Below are positions 17,609 to 30,030 of a DNA stretch of 64,000 nt, piece after piece. The notes beneath the pieces are model-generated. The model had not been told where the DNA came from and ran no database searches. It saw only the letters and a list, made by a program, of their open reading frames with translations. The number at the start of each line of letters is the position of its first letter. Position 1 is the stretch's first letter. Origin of the DNA: an uncultured Clostridia bacterium (lineage in GTDB: Bacteria; Bacillota; Clostridia; Oscillospirales; Oscillospiraceae); NCBI GenBank assembly GCA_947649615.1, contig CANSSG010000005.1, forward strand, positions 1-64,000. Reading direction: 5' to 3'. Both the position numbers and the translations under genes were made by a program.

Positions 17609-17629
17609 CGGGAAGCCCCCCCCAGCTTG

Positions 17630-17682
17630 AACCCCTCCGCGCGGCCGCGTTAAGCGGCTGTGCGGAGGGGTTGGGTTTTTTC
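17630..17682 (+). terminator. Terminator of pheST
   Basis: AACCCCTCCGC pairs with GCGGAGGGGTT across an internal loop, followed by GGGTTTTTTCG. Confidence 0.9.
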
Positions 17683-17690
17683 GTTAGGGC

Positions 17691-17930
17691 GTGTTTGAAA
17701 AATGTCAAAACGCCCAAACGGCGGATATTTTTCCGCTGTACAGCGTTAAAAAATCTTGAAATACACAAAGTATTCCTGCGTAGATCGCGCAATGGGCGCA
17801 TCGAGCGCCCATGCGCGATTGAATTCCACACGGCCCCTCGACGGGGCCGTTGTGGAATCATATTTGCCTTGTCCATCGAAAAAATTACTCGCTTTTGGTC
17901 ATTCCGCCATTTATCAAACAAGCCCTAAGC
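17691..17930. repeat. Hairpin-rich repeat at the left edge of the island
   Basis: The first 50 bases, beginning GTGTTTGAAAAATG and including AACGCCCAAACGGCGG, recur with few changes at 54523-54570. Two long hairpins follow: GCGCAATGGGCGC / GCGCCCATGCGC at about 17788-17817, and GATTGAATTCCACACGGCCC with its complement GGGCCGTTGTGGAATC at about 17817-17861. No protein is evident. It resembles a non-autonomous mobile repeat or a transposon end. Confidence 0.65.
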
Positions 17931-17934
17931 AAGG

Positions 17935-18073
17935 CGTTTGTTGGTCTCCGCAGCGAGCCGCTATCATCCGTGCCAACCGATACATGGTGGAGCACGGCGA
18001 TTACTTGATTGCTTACGTGTGGCATTCGGCCAGTAATGCCAAGGGTTTAGTTGAATATGCCAGAACAAGATAA
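17935..18073 (+). pseudogene. C-terminal remnant of a SLOG/DUF1273-like protein
   Basis: One frame reads RANRYMVEHGDYLIAYVWHS then ASNAKGLVEYARTR and a stop. This is the end of the YpsA/DUF1273-type SLOG nucleotide-binding fold as I know it from Firmicutes mobile regions. No start codon or N-terminal Rossmann part exists upstream, where the hairpin repeat abuts it. It is a truncated relic. Confidence 0.65.
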
Positions 18074-18173
18074 AGACAGGGGAAAATTAGTATCTCAAGT
18101 CTACCAAGGTGTTGGCCAGAGTGCTAAGTCTATGGAAATTTCAGTAACCAGTTGGCATAAATACGACACAATA

Positions 18174-18202
18174 TTGATTTTTCCAGTTTTTGCGTCTATA
18201 AT
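18174..18202 (+). promoter_or_regulatory. Promoter of the four-gene island operon
   Basis: TTGATT (18174-18179) and TATAAT (18197-18202), 17 bases apart, 70 bases before the first start codon. No second promoter is seen before the terminator at 28651. Confidence 0.8.
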
Positions 18203-18272
18203 AATTTGAGTAGTAGAAGAGTTAAGCTTTCATTTGGCGTATCTTAATTTTCGAAGGAGGGGGAAATAAGCG

Positions 18273-19244
18273 ATGAAAATGCTGTTATGCGCGGATATGC
18301 GCTTGGGAGCTGCCTGCTTAGAGAATCTGGACGTAAATCTCTCGCATAAATGGCAGGCCGCCAGAACAGAGAAACTGACGGACTTGATTGATAAAGCCGC
18401 GCAAAACAATGCTGAATATGTTTTTTTGCTTGGGCGGATGTTCGGGCGGGAGAGGGTCTCAGAATCGGTAATCGACAGTTTGTTCCACGCCGTAAGCGGG
18501 GATCAACATATTCAGGTCATGGCTTTTCTTATTGTTGACGAATATAAGAGAATTTCCTACAGGAATGATCTTCCGAAAAATCTGCATTTGATCTACACAC
18601 AAACCGGAGAGAATTTCCTGGACAATCATATTGCTCTTCGCATTGATAATGATTCAATAGAGCTTCAGCTTGCGGATAATGCTTCTGTGTGGATTCATAG
18701 AAACACAGAAGGCAGATTTGTGCTAAGCGGAGTCGGTGAAGATCAAATCATACCTTCCTTCGAACCAATCGGCTTTGAAGATGCCCGGGAAATCCAAGCC
18801 GGATATTCTGTGCTCGAATGGGCCGAAGAGAAGCTGGCCGGATGTAATGTGGTAGAAGACCAGAAATACGCCTTCCAGTCCGTTGAACTGAAGATCCTGC
18901 CGGAGGATGGGCAGAAGGATGTGATCAGAAAAATCAATGCCGCAGTGAACAAAATTGGAATTGATACATTTCTTCATATTACGATTACTGGCCGGTCCGC
19001 ATTTGGACTGACCTTAAGCAGCGATGCTTTGAAAAAGCAGCTTCAAAACCGCATATTCTTTGTGGAGATATATGACAATACGCGGATGGATATTGACGAG
19101 GAGATGTTTGAGAATGACATTTCCCTGCGCAGCGAGTTCGTCCGTCTGGCGCTTCAGGACGATTCTTTGAGCGAGTCCGAACGCAGCCGGATTATTAGCT
19201 GCGGCTGGAATGTGTTAAGCGGCGGGGAGGTGTCAGCGGAATGA
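18273..19244 (+). CDS. SbcD/YhaO-like protein with degenerate phosphoesterase site
   Basis: 323 residues. The N-terminus follows the SbcD/Mre11 pattern but has lost its metal ligands: CADMRLG (residues 6-12) replaces CADLHLG, LLGRMFG (52-58) replaces the AGDLFD motif, and FLIVDEYK stands where GNHD is expected. Only the first aspartate (D8) survives. It is therefore probably a structural partner rather than a nuclease. It starts after GAAGGAGGGGG and overlaps the SbcC-like gene by 4 bases (ATGA), implying a stoichiometric complex. The family link is inferred from pattern and context. Confidence 0.75.
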   Translation: MKMLLCADMRLGAACLENLDVNLSHKWQAARTEKLTDLIDKAAQNNAEYVFLLGRMFGRERVSESVIDSLFHAVSGDQHIQVMAFLIVDEYKRISYRNDLPKNLHLIYTQTGENFLDNHIALRIDNDSIELQLADNASVWIHRNTEGRFVLSGVGEDQIIPSFEPIGFEDAREIQAGYSVLEWAEEKLAGCNVVEDQKYAFQSVELKILPEDGQKDVIRKINAAVNKIGIDTFLHITITGRSAFGLTLSSDALKKQLQNRIFFVEIYDNTRMDIDEEMFENDISLRSEFVRLALQDDSLSESERSRIISCGWNVLSGGEVSAE

Positions 19245-22200
19245 AGCTGCTCAGGATACATATTGATGACTTCGGATGCCTGCACGATTACGACTATGAA
19301 TTTGAGGACGGCTTGAATGTTGTCCTTCATGACAACGGCTGGGGCAAAACCACCATGGGCGCATTTTTAAAGGCGATGCTGTATGGTTTTTCTTCCAAGA
19401 GAAGCAAAGATATCACGGAGAATGAAAGGCGGCGTTACTTCCCCTGGCAGGGCGGCAAATACGGCGGCTCTTTGGATTTTGAGACCGAAGGTGTAAGATA
19501 TCGTATTTTTAGGACCTTTGGGGAGACGCCGCGTTTCGACAAAACGAAAATTCTGAACCTTGATTCCAAAACCACGGCCAAGATTGATCCGGAAAATATT
19601 GGCGATAGCCTGTTCAAGCTGGATGTCAGCGCTTTCCAGCGGAGCGTATTTATCAATCAGAACGGCCTGTCTCTGGACGGCGCCGCCAGCAGCATCCATA
19701 CCAGGCTGAATGCGCTGGTCAGTCAGGCCAACGATGTTGCCGCCTTTGATGATGCCATAGCGAAGCTGACCGCGCAGGCCAAGCTTTATGAGAAGACTGG
19801 GGCCAGAGGGCAGATTGGTGATATAAACAGGGAAATTTCTATGCTGGAACAGCATCGTGACCATTTGGAATCTGATATAGCGAAGCAGGACGGCGCCAGA
19901 AATCGTATCTTAGAGATTGACGCACTTCTGAGCGCGATTGAGGATGACCTTGCGGCAAAAAAGAAAAGGCTGGACGAGGTCTCCGGTGAAGCCAAGAAGC
20001 GCGAAGCGTCGGAGGAACTGTTGGCGGATTTGAATCAGCAGATTGCGCAGCTCCAAGAAAAAATGGATGCGGTCAAAGCGGACCTGGGCGGCGAACTCCC
20101 CAGCGCCGCCGAACTTAACCAGGCAACGCACCAGAAGCAGTCCGCAGCCGTATTGGCACGGCAACTGGCTGAACTAGAGGAAGGATATACACTGCTGGAG
20201 ACCAGCTATAACAACCTCCTGGACGCTTATCACGGTACATTGCCTACCACGGCACAGTTGGACGAACTGCAAAATATCTACGGCGAGCTTCAAGGCATCC
20301 GCTCAGCCGGGGTGGAAGCGGATGATGCGGTTGGCGAGGAGCCGGAAGCATATACCCTCATCAAAGCAGCCGCCGGCGGGTCGCCAGATTATATCGCCAG
20401 GCTTCAGCATATCGTTGGCACACAGGAAACCGTCCAGGGACATATCCGCGCGTTGGAGACTGCCGAAAGCGAATGGAATCAAGAGCAAAATTCCTGGGCC
20501 GGCCAGAAGAAGCAGTATGCCGCGCTTGTACAGGAGACAGTGCGCTTGCAGGATGAAGCGGGACAGGCGGAGGGATACAGGCCTGATGTGATTGGGCCGG
20601 TCATCCGTGATATGGAGTCGCTTCAGGAGAGACAGAGGGCCTTGACACAGCAGAGCGCGAACCAGGACGCGGCAATCAAGCAGGAAGCGGCTGGATGGCG
20701 TGAGAAGAAACGCCGGTACGTCTCTTTCAAAGATGAAGTGGAGCATCTCCGGGCGGAGGCCGGCGCAAGGAGCGAATTTGCCCCGGAGAACGTCACGCCC
20801 GCCATTGCGGAACTGGAAGATTTGCAGAAGCAGCAGCAGATTGTGGATGTGAAATCGGAGGAACTGTCAGAGGTCGGATTCACCGCGGAGCAGGAGGCCC
20901 TGCTTGCGCAGTACCCTGGGGATTTGCCGGATGCAGCGGAGGGAAACGAGGTCCTGAAAAAAATGCGCGGCATTGCGCAAAAGGCTTCGGATATACATGG
21001 TCTGGAGGCCAGGAAGGCCGGCGAGCAGAGCAGGGCCGGCAGCCTGCAAGCCTCCATGGATCAGCTCAACGCCCTGCCTGATGATGAAAACGGCGGAGCG
21101 GTGGAAAAGCCGAAGAAATCCTCTGGAACGGCAATGATGGGGGCCGGTGCTGCGCTTGCCGTGGCCGGCGTGGTTTTGATGTTTGTGATTGCGCCCATTA
21201 TGGCAATCGTTGCCGCTGCCGGCGCTGTCCTGGCAGCCCTGGGCATAGTCCATACGAACAATTATAAGACAAAACTGAAAGCATATGAAGCATATCAGGC
21301 GTCCTCCGCCCAGAGACAGGAAAACCAGCAGAAGAAAGCGGAACTCCAGGCCCAATTCGATGCGGCAAGAAACGCTGTGGACGCGCTTCAAAAACAGATT
21401 GACGGTTTGAGCCGGGACCTTCAAACGGAGCAGGCATTGGTCGATTCCTGGGCGGCAAAATGGCTGTCCGGCAGGAAAGCGGATGAAGAGAGCGTATCTG
21501 CGGCCATGGAACAGGCGGCGCAGGCCGCCAAACTCCGGGAGAAGCGGCAGGATGCCGCTGAAAAAGAGCGCTTTGTAACGGAAAAAACGGCGCAGATTGC
21601 CGCCGGGAGGAAGACAATTGAAGCGCGGTTCCCCGCAATTTCGGGAAAAACCATTCCGGATGCGTTGGAGCTTCTGCGCTCCTCCCAGACGGACTATACG
21701 CTTTACGCAGGCCGGCTGCAAACAGCCGAGCAAAACCTGAATCAGTTTTTCTCTGAATCCAAACTCACCGCAGAGCAAATCAGCGCTTCAGAATCCCCGC
21801 GTATCGCCAAGATGAAAAGCGAACAGGAGCAGACCCGCCAGGAGTTGGAGGAGATTGACGCGCAGCGCCAGGCATATGAGCAAACCTATCCAGAAATTGC
21901 GGGGGCAACTTATGACGGCGCCTTAAAAATTTTGCGCACCAAGGAAGGAAGCTATATGGTGATGGACGGCCAGCTACAGGCCGCTATGCGCAATCTGAAG
22001 GAATTTCTGGCAGGCGCAGAACTTTCAGAAGCGCAGCTTTCCGCAGAGGAGTCACCGGGCATGGCAGACCTGGCGCAGGCCAAGGCCGAGACGTCGCAAA
22101 AGCTGGCGCAGGCCATAGAGGACGCGAATGAGGTTCTGGCCCTGCTGGAAATGGATACGGATTCCGCGCATATTATCCAGGCCCTTCGTGAAGCGGGGCA

Positions 22201-23734
22201 GATGCTCCATGAATACCGGCAGTATGCGGATAAACTCCAGGAACATGCCGGACGGCGGGAAAAGAAACAGGCGCAGCTTGACGCACTTCAAAAGAAGCTA
22301 GCGGATAAACTGGTGGTTCTTCGAGACAGATATCCGGATGCGGAGGTCCCGGCCAGATTGGCCTTAATCCGTGAGGAGACCAGCAACGCGGCCAAGTACA
22401 GAGAGAAGCTGGCGGAATCTAAGGCCAGTCAGGAGAAGCAGAGAGTGGAACTGGACAGAGCAAACGAGTCTATTGCCGCGTTTATATCCGCGTACGGCCA
22501 CTTTTCTCCGGAAACAGAGGATATTCTGGCTGAAATTCACGCGAAAGCGTCGTCTTACTCGGAGCTGGCCGCAGCAAGGCAGCAGCTTGAAAAGCAAAAA
22601 AGCGTTGCCAATCCGGCTGAAACAGACGGCGGCGTCCCTGCCGGGAAGGAAGAAACGGAACTCCGGGCAGAGATCGCCAGCCTGGAAGAGCGAAGGGACG
22701 CTCTGCGCGACGAGTACACGCACAAGAGCGGCTTTATCCGCCAGGCCGACCAGTCTCTTGAGCAATACCCCGATGTGGTACAGGAAATCCACCAGCTCTA
22801 CGACCGGAAGCAGAAGGCCCAGAACACGCTTGCCATGTTAAAGCGCACGATCCAGTTGATTACAAAGGCGAAGGGAAATCTGGCCAACCGGTATTTAAGC
22901 AAGGTGGAACAGCGCTTCAACAGCTATATGCAGATATGGATGAACAATGATGCTGTGCGGGGGATACTGGATATTGACTTCAACATCGAAATCAAGGAAA
23001 ATGACAAGACCCATGTGGCCGAGGGGTACAGTACCGGCTCTTGTGACTTGATCGACTTTTGCATGAGACTGGCCTTGGTGGACACGTTGTTTGAGAGCGA
23101 GCAGCCGTTTTTGATTTTGGATGATCCGTTTGTGAATCTGGACGTGGAGCGCCTGGATAAGGCGTTGGAACTTCTGGATGTTATGGCTGCGCATAAGCAA
23201 ATCATTTACTTCGTATGCCATCCGATTCGAGCCGTGGAGACAAACGAGGATTCTGCAACGCGGGCAGAATTTGTCCGCCTGGCGGAGACGGCAAGAAAGG
23301 CGGTTGAGGGCCGCAAATCCACTGGTGCGGAGCGGAAGAAAATTGTCCGCAAATCTCCAAAAGAGATATATCAGGTCGTAAATCCGGACGGCGCGGTTGC
23401 AATCCGGCCCGTAAAGACCGATTATACGATTACAAACAGTATTTTCAGTATGCAATTTGCACTAAGCGATGCCGGTGCAGCGAGGGACCGCTCATATGAA
23501 CTGTTTTTCATTGACGAGATCGGCCATGTTTTGAACGACCGCCAGCTAATTGAAATCAAAAACGGCAAGCTGTCCACAGAAAGAGTTCAGTTCTGCCTGA
23601 ATACCCGTGACGACAGCGGAGGACAATACGAACTGATGATTCGTGAGAGCGGCCAGGATGACTATGAAATCGCTGCCAGAATTCCCTTTAAAGCAAAGCT
23701 GGCATTTGCAGGAACCTTTAGTTTTGATTTGTAA
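19241..23734 (+). CDS. SbcC/YhaN-like SMC-type ATPase with membrane hairpin
   Basis: 1497 residues, SMC-like layout. The N-terminal ATPase half has Walker A NGWGKTT with K36; the usual first glycine is His. Long coiled coils (about 170-620 and 680-1240) surround a hydrophobic pair of helices at about 629-673 (MMGAGAALAVAGVVLMFVIA then PIMAIVAAAGAVLAALGIV), where SbcC has a zinc hook. The C-terminal half has signature YSTGSCDLIDFCMRL near 1262 and Walker B PFLILDDPFVNLD near 1287. About 150 extra residues form a beta-rich tail of unknown family. It is likely membrane-tethered and paired with the preceding SbcD-like protein. Confidence 0.85.
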   Translation: MKLLRIHIDDFGCLHDYDYEFEDGLNVVLHDNGWGKTTMGAFLKAMLYGFSSKRSKDITENERRRYFPWQGGKYGGSLDFETEGVRYRIFRTFGETPRFDKTKILNLDSKTTAKIDPENIGDSLFKLDVSAFQRSVFINQNGLSLDGAASSIHTRLNALVSQANDVAAFDDAIAKLTAQAKLYEKTGARGQIGDINREISMLEQHRDHLESDIAKQDGARNRILEIDALLSAIEDDLAAKKKRLDEVSGEAKKREASEELLADLNQQIAQLQEKMDAVKADLGGELPSAAELNQATHQKQSAAVLARQLAELEEGYTLLETSYNNLLDAYHGTLPTTAQLDELQNIYGELQGIRSAGVEADDAVGEEPEAYTLIKAAAGGSPDYIARLQHIVGTQETVQGHIRALETAESEWNQEQNSWAGQKKQYAALVQETVRLQDEAGQAEGYRPDVIGPVIRDMESLQERQRALTQQSANQDAAIKQEAAGWREKKRRYVSFKDEVEHLRAEAGARSEFAPENVTPAIAELEDLQKQQQIVDVKSEELSEVGFTAEQEALLAQYPGDLPDAAEGNEVLKKMRGIAQKASDIHGLEARKAGEQSRAGSLQASMDQLNALPDDENGGAVEKPKKSSGTAMMGAGAALAVAGVVLMFVIAPIMAIVAAAGAVLAALGIVHTNNYKTKLKAYEAYQASSAQRQENQQKKAELQAQFDAARNAVDALQKQIDGLSRDLQTEQALVDSWAAKWLSGRKADEESVSAAMEQAAQAAKLREKRQDAAEKERFVTEKTAQIAAGRKTIEARFPAISGKTIPDALELLRSSQTDYTLYAGRLQTAEQNLNQFFSESKLTAEQISASESPRIAKMKSEQEQTRQELEEIDAQRQAYEQTYPEIAGATYDGALKILRTKEGSYMVMDGQLQAAMRNLKEFLAGAELSEAQLSAEESPGMADLAQAKAETSQKLAQAIEDANEVLALLEMDTDSAHIIQALREAGQMLHEYRQYADKLQEHAGRREKKQAQLDALQKKLADKLVVLRDRYPDAEVPARLALIREETSNAAKYREKLAESKASQEKQRVELDRANESIAAFISAYGHFSPETEDILAEIHAKASSYSELAAARQQLEKQKSVANPAETDGGVPAGKEETELRAEIASLEERRDALRDEYTHKSGFIRQADQSLEQYPDVVQEIHQLYDRKQKAQNTLAMLKRTIQLITKAKGNLANRYLSKVEQRFNSYMQIWMNNDAVRGILDIDFNIEIKENDKTHVAEGYSTGSCDLIDFCMRLALVDTLFESEQPFLILDDPFVNLDVERLDKALELLDVMAAHKQIIYFVCHPIRAVETNEDSATRAEFVRLAETARKAVEGRKSTGAERKKIVRKSPKEIYQVVNPDGAVAIRPVKTDYTITNSIFSMQFALSDAGAARDRSYELFFIDEIGHVLNDRQLIEIKNGKLSTERVQFCLNTRDDSGGQYELMIRESGQDDYEIAARIPFKAKLAFAGTFSFDL

Positions 23735-23753
23735 CGCAGAGGGAGGCAAGGAC

Positions 23754-25874
23754 ATGACCCCGTTGGACCAAAAGATTTTGGGCAATTTCCCGGGAAAGGT
23801 TGTCAGGAAGGACCTGACTTCCCTGATGAAAAAGGGCGCAAATGTGCCTACATACGTGTTGGAGTACCTGCTAGGCATGTACTGCGCCACGGATGATGAG
23901 GACGCGATTGAGACCGGCTTGGACAAAATCAGGCGTATCCTGAGCGAAAACTATGTCAGGCCGGACCAGAGCGAGTATGTCAAATCCAAGATCAAGGAGA
24001 ACGGCCAGTACACCATTATTGACAAGATCACGGTAGAGCTGGATGAACGCGAGGACAAGTATATCGCCTGGTTTACAAATCTGAATATGGACCCCTTTGA
24101 AGTAAGTTCGGACTTGGTTGTCCATAACGAAAAGCTGCTGGTCGGCGGGATCTGGTGCATCATCAAGATTGAGTATGTCGGCTTGGACAAGGGCAGGGAG
24201 CAGGAGGATGAATACGAGGAGGACATTTTCGGAAACCGGAAAAAAAGAAAGAATGTCCGTAAAAAGCGCTCCCGGTACGAATCTCCGTTTGAGATTGCCG
24301 CGCTGAAGCCAATTCAGATGCCAAATCTGGACCTGGAGGAGATCAAGGACGCCCGCCGGAACTTTACCAAGGACGAGTGGATATCCCTGCTCTTGAAATC
24401 CGCAGGCTATGAGCCGGAAGCGCTGACAGACAAGCAGAAACTCCACTATTTGCTCCGCTTTGTCCCGTTCATCCAGAAAAACTACAACCTGGTGGAACTT
24501 GGCCCGCGCGGCACAGGGAAGTCCCATGCTTACAGCGAACTGTCCCCGTATTCCATTCTGATCAGCAGCGGCCATACGACCGTATCCAATATGTTTTACA
24601 ATATGGGTTCCCGCAAGATCGGCCTGGTCGGGAATTGGGACTGCATTGCGTTTGACGAGGTCAGCGGGATTACACAGGCTTCCGGCGACATGATTCAGAT
24701 TATGAAGAATTATATGGCCAACGGCTCCTTTGCAAGAGGGGCAGAGTCTATCAGTTCCGATGCGTCCATCGCATTTGAGGGCAACACCTTTAGAAGCGTT
24801 GCCGATATGATGCGGACCACCAACCTGTTCGAGCCGTTTCCGGAGGAATTCAATCATGACTCGGCCTTTTTTGACCGCATCCACGCCTATCTGCCCGGAT
24901 GGGAGACGCCGAAGCTGAGAGCCAGCCTGTTCACGAAGGGCTATGGCCTGATCTCCGACTGTTTTTCAGAATTTTGCCATGGGATGCGGAAGTATGACTT
25001 CACCAACACATTTGGCGCCTATTTCGCGTTCAATGACAATTATAACACCCGGGATGACACCGCCGTCAGAAGGACCTTCTCCGGCATGGCAAAGCTGATG
25101 TATCCCAATGAGGAGATGACGAAGGAAGAGACCCGCGAACTGCTGGAATATTGTATCGAAGGCAGGCGGAGGGTCAAGGAGCAGCTGCGCAAAATGAATC
25201 CGGCGGAGTTCAGTGATGTTGCACTGGGCTATATTGATTTAGACACCGGCGAGGAGCATATTGTCAGCCTGCCGGAGGTGGCTACCGGAACACTGATTTT
25301 TGAAGGCTTTGAAAAGCCGGGATATGTGTACGCGGTCGGCCGTTCTGTCGATGATAAGGTCGGCATCTATCGCCTTGAGAACAAGCTGCTGACCGGCTCC
25401 GGTAAATTCAGCTTCAAAAACGTGGAGGGGCTTGCCCACTCCCCAAAGGGCGTCCGGGACAGCATCACGGCCGCATTCAACTATTTCAGTGAAAACGCAG
25501 GCCGGCTGATTTCCAGCGATTGCGAGACCTATGATTACAGCCTGTATTTCAATGACCTGCAAAACCGGAACGTCAGTGACGAGGTGTCTGTTGCGGAGGT
25601 TGTGGGCCTGTTTTCAGCCCTAGCCAATCGCTCCGTGCTGCCGTCGCTTGTTATTTGCGGACGCGTTGTCATGTCCGGCAGCATGATGCCGGTTACGACA
25701 GAACTGGATGAAATATTTGTGGCAGTGTCCAACGCAGGAGCCAGGAAAATCATGCTGCCTGCTGAGAGCGAAAAGCAATACGAGACCATCAGCAGGGAGC
25801 TGAAGGATGAACTTGAGGTTATCTTCTATCAATCGCCGTTGGACGCGGTCAAAAAAGCGCTTGGAGTGGAATGA
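23754..25874 (+). CDS. BrxL-like AAA+/Lon-related protein
   Basis: 706 residues matching the BrxL (Lon-related, COG4930) pattern: an N-terminal domain, Walker A ELGPRGTGKSHAYSELS near residue 250, Walker B WDCIAFDEVSGI near 297, and a Lon-protease-like C-terminal domain (about 540-706). In the Lon domain a serine is present in EVSVAEVVGLFSAL near 609, but the catalytic lysine position in the MPVTTELDEIFVAV segment is not a lysine, so proteolysis is doubtful. BrxL proteins act in BREX phage defence; no pglX, pglZ, brxA-C is here. ATG 23754 follows GGGAGG, 19 bases after the ATPase gene. Confidence 0.88.
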   Translation: MTPLDQKILGNFPGKVVRKDLTSLMKKGANVPTYVLEYLLGMYCATDDEDAIETGLDKIRRILSENYVRPDQSEYVKSKIKENGQYTIIDKITVELDEREDKYIAWFTNLNMDPFEVSSDLVVHNEKLLVGGIWCIIKIEYVGLDKGREQEDEYEEDIFGNRKKRKNVRKKRSRYESPFEIAALKPIQMPNLDLEEIKDARRNFTKDEWISLLLKSAGYEPEALTDKQKLHYLLRFVPFIQKNYNLVELGPRGTGKSHAYSELSPYSILISSGHTTVSNMFYNMGSRKIGLVGNWDCIAFDEVSGITQASGDMIQIMKNYMANGSFARGAESISSDASIAFEGNTFRSVADMMRTTNLFEPFPEEFNHDSAFFDRIHAYLPGWETPKLRASLFTKGYGLISDCFSEFCHGMRKYDFTNTFGAYFAFNDNYNTRDDTAVRRTFSGMAKLMYPNEEMTKEETRELLEYCIEGRRRVKEQLRKMNPAEFSDVALGYIDLDTGEEHIVSLPEVATGTLIFEGFEKPGYVYAVGRSVDDKVGIYRLENKLLTGSGKFSFKNVEGLAHSPKGVRDSITAAFNYFSENAGRLISSDCETYDYSLYFNDLQNRNVSDEVSVAEVVGLFSALANRSVLPSLVICGRVVMSGSMMPVTTELDEIFVAVSNAGARKIMLPAESEKQYETISRELKDELEVIFYQSPLDAVKKALGVE

Positions 25875-25877
25875 GTT

Positions 25878-28616
25878 ATGGCAGAGTATCAATGTATATG
25901 CTGCGGCGAAGTAAAGCAAAGTGAGAAGGACTGCACATGTCCCAACTGCGGCTATAAGATGTATCCGGCGCCTTATGACCGCAAACAGGTGCTTGCAAAC
26001 GAAATCAACAGGTTTCTACAGCGTTTGCAGCTTAGTGAAATCAAAACGGAGTCCGTCAGCTTCCTTCGCCGGGAGCCGTCTTCCCCAAAAGAGCAGGCAT
26101 CCGGGGATAAAAAGATGAAGGTAATCCCCAAAAGCAAAGATGACGAACGGTTTCCGGATTTTGACAGGATTCAAGGCTATGTCTGTGCCGGCAAAAAATC
26201 TGAGGACTTTTTTGCCCGCCTGAACCAATCCCTGGAAGAAATCAAAACGCATATCCATACAGACTATCAGCGTGTCTATGAGGTGGATTTTGGCGATGTA
26301 AAATCCCAGATGGAAGAACTTGACGCTGTATTGGAGGAAGCCCTGCGGGAGACCGGCCTTCCCTGCGAACTGAAGGCGGCGGTTTTTCCGAAGGTTGTCC
26401 TGCACTATCGCGAGACGCCGAATGAGGGGCTTATGGATATTGCGGATGAACTGCTTGCCCTCCTGGCGGAGCTGTCTGCCAAGGTGGGGCGGTTCATCAA
26501 GGTCAATAATATTTATGGAACCGGCTATCAGAAAAAGATGAAGCCATCCCTGAAGCGGTTGCGGGAAACGGACGGCCGGACTGCTCTCAGCAATATTTTG
26601 GCAGCCGTAAAACAGGTGTTGTCAAAAAAATACGTGGTCGATATTTTCTCTGACGGCTCGGATGAACTCGAAGAAATGCTGAAGGCCTTATGGACGGCAA
26701 TCTGTGCCGTTATGACGCTTCCGGTGCTGAAGAAGGAGTATATCTACCGCTTCGAAGACGGCGGCGAGGTGATGGGCGACGCCTTTGCCGGTAAGACGGC
26801 GGCCACGATATCGGAGCGGTATGCAAAAATCAAATCACCGGCCATCGACTCTGATTTTATGGCAGCGAAGGACGCGGACCACCTGTTTGACCTCTATAAC
26901 AAGATGATTCAACTGGACTCTTTTGGATTCATGGGCGTGAACGCGGCAAAACTGACGAATATCGGGGAGAGCGAAAAAGAACTGAAGCGGTTGATTGGCC
27001 TTTCCAGCATCAAAGACAGCATCCAAAAGATCCGTGCATACGCGCTGGCCAACAAGGGGAGCAAAGCCCTGAATATTCATATGTGTTTCTATGGGAACCC
27101 CGGAACCGGGAAGACGGAGGTAGCCAGAATTATCGCGGGAATCCTGTATGAGAATAAGATTCTGCCGTCTAAACAGGTTGTGGAAGTGGACCGCAGCGGC
27201 CTGATTGGGCAGTACGTGGGCGAAACGCCCCAGAAGACGATGCGGGCGGTCCATCGCGCCATGGGCGGCGTCCTCTTTATTGACGAAGCTTACGCGCTGG
27301 TTCCCAAAGACGGGGGCGCGTGGGACTATGGGCAGGAAGCGGTGGCAACGCTGGTTAAGGCAATGGAAGATTATCGCGGCAAGTTCTGCGTGATCCTTGC
27401 CGGATATAAAAACCAGATGTTGGAGATGCTGTCCACAAACCCCGGCTTTCAGTCCAGAATTCAATTTGAACTGGATTTCCCGAACTATGATAGAAACGAA
27501 CTAAAGCAAATCACGCAGTTAATGCTTTTGGACAGAAAGTATACTCTCACGGATGCCGCCATGGAAAGGCTGCTGGATATAACGGACGTAAAGCGTAAGA
27601 ACCCCAATTTTGCCAATGCGCGGGAAGTCCGCAACATTCTCGATCAGGTTATCATGTGTCAAAACCTGCGCACGGCAGGCACGGACGACCATGAACTTGG
27701 GATTACGGATGTGAATCGCTATATCACAGACGCAAAGATAAATCTTCCCATATCCGGGAATGGCGCCGTGAAGAAAATTTTAACCGGAGAAGAGGAACTG
27801 GAACGGCTGACCGGCCTCGTCTCGGTAAAACGCATGGTCAAGAAAATCAAAGCGTACGCTAAGAAAAATAAGGACGCTGAAAATTTTAACCTCCATATGT
27901 GTTTCTATGGCAATCCAGGCACGGGAAAAACGGAGGTTGCCCGCATTCTTTCCAGGATTCTTTATGATGCCGGCGTACTGGCGGAAGCCAAGTTGGTTGA
28001 GACGGATTCTACGGGCTTTATCGGAAAGGTTGTTGGCGAAACAGGCCCGAAGACGAAGGAAAAGGTGCAGGACGCCATGGGCGGGGTGCTTTTTATTGAT
28101 GAAGCCTATAGCTTGTCCAGCGGCGGTTCAGCACCCGGTATTCCCGCGAGCTATGGAGATGAGGCAATTGCCGTCCTACTAAAGGAGATGGAGGATCACT
28201 GCGGGCAGTTCTGCGTGATTCTCGCCGGCTATCAGGAGGAGATGAAGGCCATGCTGAGCGCAAATTCTGGATTTGAATCCAGGATTCAGTTTACGCTGGA
28301 TTTCCCAGATTACACCAGGGAAGAACTTGGCGAAATTGCGGAAACGTTTTTGAATGACAAGAACTATAAGATTGATGCCCAGGCCTTAAACCGGCTTCTG
28401 GATATAACGGATTACTATAGACAGCGGCCAAATTTCGCGAATGCCAGAACCGTCCGAAATATTCTCGATCAGGTTATTATGAATCAGAATCTACGCACAG
28501 AGGATGACGATGATAACCGCGTCCTGATTGCCAGCGACGTAGAAGATTATATCACGGATACGGATATTGATTTGAAGGCACCTTCCAAGCGCAAGATTGG
28601 CTTTAGTATGGATTAA
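25878..28616 (+). CDS. Zinc-ribbon protein with two CbbX/SpoVK-type AAA+ modules
   Basis: 912 residues. The N-terminus carries CICCGEVKQS followed by CTCPNCGYKMYP, a likely zinc ribbon. A helical region (about 60-360) leads to two AAA+ modules of the CbbX/SpoVK class: Walker A GNPGTGKTEVAR near 405 and 677, Walker B GVLFIDEAYAL/S near 464 and 735, and sensor stretch NFANAREVRNILDQVIM / NFANARTVRNILDQVIM. The modules are close duplicates, both apparently intact. It begins 3 bases after the BrxL-like stop. CbbX-type proteins remodel other proteins; the target is unknown. It ends the operon. Confidence 0.88.
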   Translation: MAEYQCICCGEVKQSEKDCTCPNCGYKMYPAPYDRKQVLANEINRFLQRLQLSEIKTESVSFLRREPSSPKEQASGDKKMKVIPKSKDDERFPDFDRIQGYVCAGKKSEDFFARLNQSLEEIKTHIHTDYQRVYEVDFGDVKSQMEELDAVLEEALRETGLPCELKAAVFPKVVLHYRETPNEGLMDIADELLALLAELSAKVGRFIKVNNIYGTGYQKKMKPSLKRLRETDGRTALSNILAAVKQVLSKKYVVDIFSDGSDELEEMLKALWTAICAVMTLPVLKKEYIYRFEDGGEVMGDAFAGKTAATISERYAKIKSPAIDSDFMAAKDADHLFDLYNKMIQLDSFGFMGVNAAKLTNIGESEKELKRLIGLSSIKDSIQKIRAYALANKGSKALNIHMCFYGNPGTGKTEVARIIAGILYENKILPSKQVVEVDRSGLIGQYVGETPQKTMRAVHRAMGGVLFIDEAYALVPKDGGAWDYGQEAVATLVKAMEDYRGKFCVILAGYKNQMLEMLSTNPGFQSRIQFELDFPNYDRNELKQITQLMLLDRKYTLTDAAMERLLDITDVKRKNPNFANAREVRNILDQVIMCQNLRTAGTDDHELGITDVNRYITDAKINLPISGNGAVKKILTGEEELERLTGLVSVKRMVKKIKAYAKKNKDAENFNLHMCFYGNPGTGKTEVARILSRILYDAGVLAEAKLVETDSTGFIGKVVGETGPKTKEKVQDAMGGVLFIDEAYSLSSGGSAPGIPASYGDEAIAVLLKEMEDHCGQFCVILAGYQEEMKAMLSANSGFESRIQFTLDFPDYTREELGEIAETFLNDKNYKIDAQALNRLLDITDYYRQRPNFANARTVRNILDQVIMNQNLRTEDDDDNRVLIASDVEDYITDTDIDLKAPSKRKIGFSMD

Positions 28617-28650
28617 GGCGAAGCCATCCCCGGCAGATATGGTTATGATG

Positions 28651-28672
28651 CGGGCTGCGCCCAGCCCTTTTT
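28651..28672 (+). terminator. Terminator of the island operon
   Basis: GGGCT pairs with AGCCC around GCGCCC, followed by five T, 36 bases after the last stop codon. Confidence 0.8.
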
Positions 28673-28905: not shown

Positions 28906-29870
28906 ACGGCATACCGCAGAAAGCGGAATGCCGCGCTCCGGATAGCAACAAACGCCATAAAGGAGAGAATCCGGCGGGCGATGGAAGGTTCCGGGCTGGA
29001 AGACGCGGGACAGCGGATACATGTGGGTACCATCCACGCCTTCTGCAAGCAGTTTTTGAACCGCTATAGCGGTATTTTTCAAGATTACAAAGTCCTGGAC
29101 GCCGTCAAGGCCCACCTGCTCGTGGAGCGGTATAGCCGCGAATGCAGTCTGGAAGCCTTGGGCCTCTCCCGGTGGCTGAACGATATCAAGCTGTTCTGTA
29201 CCTGCATTGAAAAGATGGCGGATGACTATAGCTGCCGGGAACTGTGGCCCCAGAAGCAACGGGAGGTGATAGAACAGTACCGCTCCGCGCTGCACAGCCG
29301 CCGTTTTATGGACTTTTCCCTGCTCCTTCTGGAAACGATGGAACAAATCCGGGCCAATCCCCAGGCAGGGGAATATTTAAAGAGCATCCGGTATTTCATT
29401 GTGGATGAATATCAGGATGTGGACGACCTACAAGAGAAGCTGATTGCCAGCATCGCTGCTGCGGGGGCCAATATCTGCGTAGTGGGGGACGACGGCCAGA
29501 CGATCTACCAGTTCCGGGGCAGCAACACTGGAAATATGATCAGCTTTGCCCGGCTGTGGGCGTGCTGGAAGGGCGTATTGCAGGAAGAACGGCTGAACGC
29601 CGGGTTCCGGCAGCTGCGGCGGACGGCCCGGAGCGGCAGAGACGGATATTCCCTCCCCCTCAGCGGAATTCTCCGAGACTTCGCAGAACTGACGGGTTTT
29701 CTTGCGGAGGGGTTCCGGATTGCGCTGCCCGGGCGAAGAAGCAGCTATATCTGTGCTGGGAGGACTCGAAAAAGCTGCCGTCCCTGTTTGTAGCCGAAGC
29801 CGCCCAGTCCCCCGCTTTGGACCGGGGAGAACTGTGCCAGAAGGAAATCGACATTGCGCTGTACAATTAG
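28906..29870 (+). pseudogene. Broken UvrD/PcrA-family helicase
   Basis: Fragments of an SF1A DNA helicase in order but without its ends. Just inside the left end one frame reads IATNAIKERIRRAME, matching motif Ia; then VGTIHAFCKQFL, the DEAD-box-like FIVDEYQDVDDLQ (Walker B), and VVGDDGQTIYQFRG (motif III) follow. The N-terminal Walker A is missing. After about 29590 the frame breaks; pieces such as [20 protein letters not shown] appear in another frame. At least one deletion and two frameshifts make it non-functional. Confidence 0.85.
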
Positions 29871-29889
29871 GATCAGATTCACCAAGGCA

Positions 29890-30030
29890 AATACAAAATT
29901 CAGTTTAACGGCAAAAATCTTCAAGGTATGTACCAACCCGTTATCCTTGTCTACACCAACGTGGGCCTTATAGCCGAAGTGCCAGGCGCCTCCTTTCTTC
30001 GTCGAATGCACCTGGGTATCCCGCTTCTTT
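29890..30030 (-). pseudogene. IS5-family transposase fragment
   Basis: On the minus strand a frame reads [20 protein letters not shown] then [13 protein letters not shown], the segment around the second catalytic acidic residue of IS5-type DDE transposases. No start, terminal repeats or C-terminus remain. It sits at the right edge of the island. Confidence 0.8.

Follow-up and report, generated by a model that had tools for sequence, protein, structure and literature searches.

How does BrxL, an effector of bacteriophage exclusion (BREX), come to be encoded beside an SbcD-SbcC pair (SbcDC), and what could such a set of genes do? This question is raised by four consecutive genes in a 64,000-nucleotide stretch of DNA from an uncultured gut bacterium of the Clostridia (contig CANSSG010000005.1), which was analysed as a whole and is called the window below. 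The genes encode, in order, an SbcD-like protein that has lost its nuclease motifs, an SbcC/YhaN-like ATPase, BrxL, and a zinc-ribbon protein with two modules of the AAA+ type (ATPases associated with diverse cellular activities). We found that this operon is a real, conserved and rare BREX-derived module of new composition, in which the SbcC-like protein ends in the C-terminal domain of the BREX protein PglZ. It is not BREX by membership, because the core genes are absent. An earlier note on this DNA, whose interpretation was partly supported, had spoken of a BrxL-like protein in a set of no named system; BrxL, its AAA+ partner and the PglZ C-domain are all BREX parts, and the note had overlooked both the tail on SbcC and the pairing of BrxL with the tandem AAA+ protein. 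The features of the operon are as follows.

18273..19244, + strand: dead SbcD, a protein of the Mre11/SbcD fold, 323 amino acids (alignment and fold prediction)
19241..23734, + strand: SbcC/YhaN-like coiled-coil ATPase of the ATP-binding cassette (ABC) type, 1497 amino acids, overlapping the SbcD gene by 4 bases
19331..19354, + strand: SbcC-like Walker A, residues 31-38, DNGWGKTT (read from the sequence)
21122..21259, + strand: membrane hairpin, residues 628-673, in the middle of the coiled coil, at the position of the zinc hook of Rad50
23108..23131, + strand: SbcC-like Walker B, residues 1290-1297, FLILDDPF (read from the sequence)
23396..23731, + strand: PglZ C-terminal immunoglobulin (Ig)-like domain at the SbcC C-terminus, residues 1386-1497 (hidden Markov model (HMM) match; proposed BrxL-docking tail)
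23754..25874, + strand: BrxL with BrxL_N, MCM-like AAA+ core and Lon-like C-domain, 706 amino acids (above curated cut-offs)
25878..28616, + strand: zinc-ribbon and tandem SpoVK/CbbX-type AAA+ protein, 912 amino acids, a recurrent neighbour of this BrxL clade in BREX
25893..25949, + strand: zinc-ribbon-like CxxC pair, residues 6-24, at the N-terminus of the fourth gene product

The PglZ domain on the SbcC-like protein

The second gene product matches Pfam AAA_23, its closest solved structures are those of Rad50, and both the N- and C-terminal ABC halves are present with Walker A/B and signature motifs. When a CxxC zinc hook was looked for in its sequence, none was found, and the membrane hairpin described in the earlier note was observed instead. 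The hairpin was considered as a special feature of the system and rejected, since ordinary YhaN-type relatives carry it too. The protein is 1497 amino acids long versus about 660-890 in intact ordinary homologues, which stop near its residue ~1330; the tail beyond that point is extra.

This tail first matched the C-terminus of PglZ from a BREX operon. An HMM built from 48 PglZ C-termini (E values at Z=10000) found the window tail at E 3.8e-7, with the best decoy at 1.3, and besides PglZ proteins nothing else reached that score. The HMM matched the SbcC tails of all four loci with this gene pair and BrxL, described below (E 3.8e-7, 1.3e-6, 1.9e-5 and 2.8e-4), and the tail was found on none of the ordinary SbcC/YhaN homologues compared. 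Furthermore, the tail was predicted to be a seven-strand beta-sandwich (core pLDDT, the predicted local distance difference test score, about 85-90); its best structural match had a Z of 7.8, but the fold is common, and a sequence search of the PDB gave no real match. The weak structural matches (Z 7-8) include complement C3 and bacterial alpha-2-macroglobulin, which agrees with PMC12839542, where the PglZ C-domain is interpreted as a macroglobulin-like Ig domain. In Type-2 PglZ a winged helix-turn-helix replaces this domain, and Type-3 PglZ has none (PMC12839542).

Almost every sampled BREX locus has pglZ immediately 5' of brxL; hence, the tailed SbcC takes the place of pglZ. The PglZ-C domain was present in 119 of 121 loci with a similar BrxL, an association that is no proof because the loci were chosen by BrxL. 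Given this adjacency, a single deletion in a BREX operon would suffice to join the 3' part of pglZ to SbcC, and the tail could be a functionless accident. We regard this as extremely improbable: four proteins that have diverged all retain the tail, the tails of the relatives being 33-56% identical to that of the window, together with a common ITN...FS motif and the predicted fold, and a second, unrelated protein at locus L250 (see below) carries it too.

BrxL, the pseudo-nuclease and the tandem AAA+ protein

The third gene product had been called BrxL-like in the earlier note. It scored 813 bits against TIGR02653 (cut-off 628) and E 8e-257 against the PADLOC BrxL model, it is full length, and its Walker A (GPRGTGKS) and Walker B (CIAFDE) motifs are intact. 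Common BREX-1 BrxLs share about 43-49% identity with it. Judged by these matches it is a genuine member of the BREX effector family BrxL, and not merely like one.

The first gene product gave no family above cut-off in Pfam, NCBIfam or PADLOC-DB 2.0. When it was aligned with ordinary clostridial relatives, the metal-binding motif DxH was found as DMR and GD as GR at residue 55, and GNHD and GHxH were missing; the C-terminal part is the best-conserved region of the protein. The predicted model (mean pLDDT 85) matched E. coli SbcD best in the PDB (4lty, Z 16.7) and P. furiosus Mre11 at Z ~15. The same motifs are gone in the SbcD proteins of the other three loci, L253, L254 and L260, so that the loss is seen in all four. 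By its motifs the protein is thus a putative pseudo-nuclease and not a nuclease, in line with the catalytically dead SbcD-like protein of the earlier note.

The fourth gene product contains two GNPGTGKT Walker A motifs and the N-terminal CxxC pair, which bears out its earlier description as a zinc-ribbon double-AAA+ protein; its two AAA+ modules are 58% identical to each other. It scored 465.5 bits against SpoVK TIGR02881 (cut-off 422.95), summed over the two modules, and 422.2 bits against CbbX TIGR02880, below the cut-off of 459.25.

Gene order among relatives and known systems

The four same-strand open reading frames (18273-19244, 19241-23734, 23754-25874 and 25878-28616) are separated by a 4-base overlap, a 19-base gap and a 3-base gap, and the tight coupling into one unit reported earlier was confirmed. 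Relatives were collected by a BrxL-alignment scan of 84,980 genomes, and the figures from it refer to the matches listed. These include at least eight full-length BrxLs 66-85% identical to that of the window, plus one fragment. The SbcD-SbcC-BrxL order is kept in four loci: the window, L253 (Lachnospiraceae; SbcD-SbcC-BrxL), L254 (Clostridia; SbcD-SbcC-BrxL-AAA+) and L260 (Candidatus Aphodovivens, Coriobacteriia; PglZ-SbcD-SbcC-BrxL, with a more distant BrxL of 51% identity and with BrxC and PglX on another contig of the genome). In all four, SbcD and SbcC overlap by a start/stop ATGA, and two of them have the fourth gene. The conserved core is therefore the three genes SbcD-SbcC-BrxL; the co-occurrence in order in unrelated genomes that the earlier note had proposed as a test was observed for these three in three other loci, and not throughout for the tandem AAA+ gene. 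The L254 SbcC carries one apparent frameshift in a sequence from a metagenome-assembled genome (MAG). In that locus the tandem AAA+ gene is followed, at a distance of 6 bases, by a gene for a WYL-domain regulator (L254:14857-15843); WYL-type regulators also occur with BREX (BrxR) and with other defence systems.

The L260 SbcC groups with the other three (support 81/91, not decisive), whereas the L260 BrxL belongs with coriobacterial BREX BrxLs, and a single BrxL clade was rejected (p-AU, the approximately unbiased test, 0.0003). Since the L260 BrxL falls outside the clostridial ones, the pairing of SbcDC with BrxL spans two deep BrxL clades. The three clostridial BrxLs of these loci as a clade had support of 69/88, which neither shows nor rejects it, and for this reason we make no claim that swapping recurred among Clostridia.

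Among the matches listed, the BrxLs closest to that of the window mostly end complete BREX-1 operons of Clostridia, with the same AAA+ gene behind them, so that BrxL forms a BREX pair with the zinc-ribbon tandem AAA+ protein, as far as gene neighbourhood tells. BREX-1 with this gene was found in Eubacterium ruminantium L250, L251, L252, Ruminococcus callidus L255 and L257, where it lies directly after BrxL (L250:12118-14865, L251:12124-14817, L252:4626-7307, L255:12127-12447 (cut) and L257:7708-11376); L256 has BREX-1 without it. A term search of the recent BREX survey PMC12839542 did not find the gene. Past the AAA+ gene, L250 (L250:14908-20516) encodes a 669-amino-acid coiled-coil protein ending in a PglZ-C domain (E 5.7e-9), then an SbcD with intact motifs, then an SbcC-like ATPase without the tail. 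Hence SbcCD seems to have become linked to a BREX locus on two occasions, with the tail on SbcC in one case and on an adaptor in the other.

Compared with BREX Type 1, the operon shares a true BrxL, whose nearest relatives end BREX-1 operons, and the PglZ C-domain at the place of PglZ; it differs in having SbcDC instead of BrxA/B/C, PglX and PglZ. Furthermore, no PglZ (PF08665), BrxC or PglX was detected in the genome of the window (95.8% complete) or in that of L253; accordingly, in these two genomes the module is solitary and has no methyltransferase. BREX Type 4 and the BREX-Related (BR) systems likewise reuse BREX parts elsewhere, but those are modification-based or DUF499-centred (PMC12839542), and a term search of that survey for SbcC, Mre11, CbbX and SpoVK gave none. 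With the SbcCD/Mre11-Rad50 and YhaO/YhaN pairs the operon has in common the gene pair, the ABC ATPase motifs, the SbcD fold and the YhaN-type membrane hairpin, whereas the lost SbcD motifs, the longer, tailed SbcC and the BrxL partner set it apart. Lamassu (LmuB) and other defence systems with ATPases of the structural maintenance of chromosomes (SMC)/ABC type also couple a coiled-coil ABC ATPase to an effector, but the LmuB match is weak (55 bits) and the effector here is BrxL, with no LmuA-type nuclease effector. Both modules of the fourth protein match TIGR02881/TIGR02880 like other SpoVK/CbbX proteins, from which it differs by its tandem duplication, zinc ribbon, long N-terminal extension and position after BrxL. 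In PADLOC-DB 2.0 only BrxL gave a strong match, those of the other operon proteins being weak and partial. Across Pfam, NCBIfam, PADLOC-DB 2.0 and the literature searched, no named system corresponded to the operon, as the earlier note had expected, and no paper in that literature named both BrxL and SbcD.

Proposed action and competing explanations

In the presence of ATP, BrxL assembles on DNA as an MCM-like ring, and its ATPase is needed for restriction (PMC10164562); other BREX factors have been suggested as its possible loaders (PMC10164562). BrxL co-purifies with a BrxB/BrxC/PglX/PglZ complex (PMC12205998) and has been reported to be specific to BREX Types 1 and 4 (PMC12839542). The simplest reading, we infer, is that the PglZ C-domain is a BrxL docking module, which here would link BrxL to an SbcDC that senses DNA and does not cut it. 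The nuclease-dead SbcD and the membrane-anchored SbcC-like ATPase would form a DNA sensor of the Mre11-Rad50 type, recognising abnormal DNA at the membrane, such as ends or hairpins. The Ig-like domain at the end of SbcC would bind BrxL, as we propose that it also does in BREX-1, and load it on the sensed DNA; the BrxL ring would then assemble around phage DNA and block its replication, and the zinc-ribbon tandem AAA+ protein may act on BrxL by activation, remodelling or recycling. We give about even chances to the operon being such a BREX-derived, methyltransferase-free immune module with an SbcDC sensor, a tail-loaded BrxL and an AAA+ remodeller.

Several points weigh against this reading. 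The absence of BREX genes from the two genomes rests on draft assemblies. The SbcDC-BrxL loci among the matches listed number four, and since at least three of them are MAGs, mis-binning is possible. In addition, the genome carrying the L254 operon has, on another contig, a BREX-1 operon (L333:939-12118, a MAG sequence) whose BrxL is reduced to N- and C-terminal pieces without the AAA+ core, so that the L254 module may serve BREX in trans. SbcDC-BrxL could accordingly be an auxiliary of BREX-1, in trans or as a backup, serving as a source of BrxL or as a link between BREX and DNA ends, its solitary copies being what is left once the BREX core has been lost; this BrxL clade occurs mainly in BREX operons, and in L260 the SbcDC pair is flanked by PglZ and BrxL within a BREX operon. 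However, the reading frames of the window and L253 are all intact in genomes where PglZ, BrxC and PglX went undetected, and the 46% identity of their SbcC proteins argues for long maintenance. We consider the auxiliary explanation unlikely, although more probable than the other competing explanations.

The role of the domain itself can be read otherwise. The Ig domain of PglZ has been proposed to recognise invader DNA or protein (PMC12839542), and dimerisation of PglZ through its Ig-like C-terminal domains has also been proposed (PMC13326643). The tail of SbcC might then be an invader-recognition or dimerisation domain in a system that would still be defensive, and the fast evolution of the PglZ C-domain is consistent with this. 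Both tailed proteins, SbcC and the L250 adaptor, adjoin BrxL, and two of the genomes showed no PglZ, a pattern that speaks for docking but is biased by the choice of loci through BrxL. We hold a tail for recognition or dimerisation, instead of docking, to be quite doubtful.

Finally, SbcDC relatives and YhaN-type pairs are common housekeeping genes in Clostridia, hence a role in DNA repair or chromosome maintenance is possible. A second copy of the system was sought in samples of the genus (25 genomes), family (300), order (295), class (321) and phylum (398), more than 1,000 relatives in all, with some genomes counted in more than one sample, and none was found; the locus is accessory and patchy in its distribution. 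The G+C content of the operon is 47-57% versus about 57-66% in the nearest flanks, and the low-G+C segment begins at a sharp break after the upstream gene pheT, where homology to genus relatives ends. Together with the lost nuclease motifs and the BREX origin of the partner genes, these observations make a repair module improbable. Where genus relatives were checked for an empty site, pheT was on one contig and the kinase found downstream of the operon on another. When plasmids were searched by tblastn, the top BrxL match was an ordinary BREX-1, SbcD gave no match, the tandem AAA+ protein no full-length match, and SbcC only distant housekeeping pairs. The viral contigs held no SbcD relative, and the BrxL relatives there were ordinary BREX; in one of these scans, for which the pattern was chosen using BrxL aligned to a scrambled BrxL copy, only ordinary BREX was found.

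Two further features border the operon.

18174..18202, + strand: promoter-like site TTGATT-17-TATAAT, candidate operon promoter (10/12 consensus matches; scan overall not above chance)
28652..28667, + strand: terminator-like hairpin with a T tract (consensus match only)

The scan for such sites barely exceeded chance (12 versus 8.9 expected, and 29 versus 19.4 expected). Nearly as many sites arise by chance, and the single promoter and single terminator claimed earlier, which exist as sites, are no more than plausible as the operon's own. Between pheT and the operon, about 560 bases (17609-18172) are without homology to genus relatives and contain a 19-nt imperfect palindrome at 17724-17755. 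Downstream lie a UvrD-helicase fragment (28981-29790), most like Gabija GajB (PADLOC E 2.5e-24) and possibly the remnant of another defence gene to judge by this match, and a DDE transposase fragment on the - strand (29748-30011; Pfam DDE_Tnp_1, weak). The mobile-element debris described in the earlier note was thus observed downstream of the operon and not upstream.

Returning to a module in which the PglZ domain docks BrxL on SbcDC, its broadest form would be stand-alone immunity, where structural sensing by a dead Mre11-Rad50 complex replaces methylation-based distinction of self from non-self, and the PglZ Ig domain loads BrxL and is the missing dock of BREX. We put this forward tentatively, with somewhat less confidence than the module itself. 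How BrxL is recruited and acts in BREX is an open question in the literature (PMC10164562, PMC13326643), and a natural system in which BrxL is combined with another sensor, and with nothing of PglZ but its C-domain, offers a minimal, testable answer, namely docking of BrxL by the Ig domain of PglZ. The data also point to a new gene associated with BREX, that of the zinc-ribbon tandem AAA+ protein in clostridial BREX operons. If the proposed reading is true, a BREX effector can work without methylation-based self-recognition, and a repair complex would become an immune sensor by the disabling of its nuclease.

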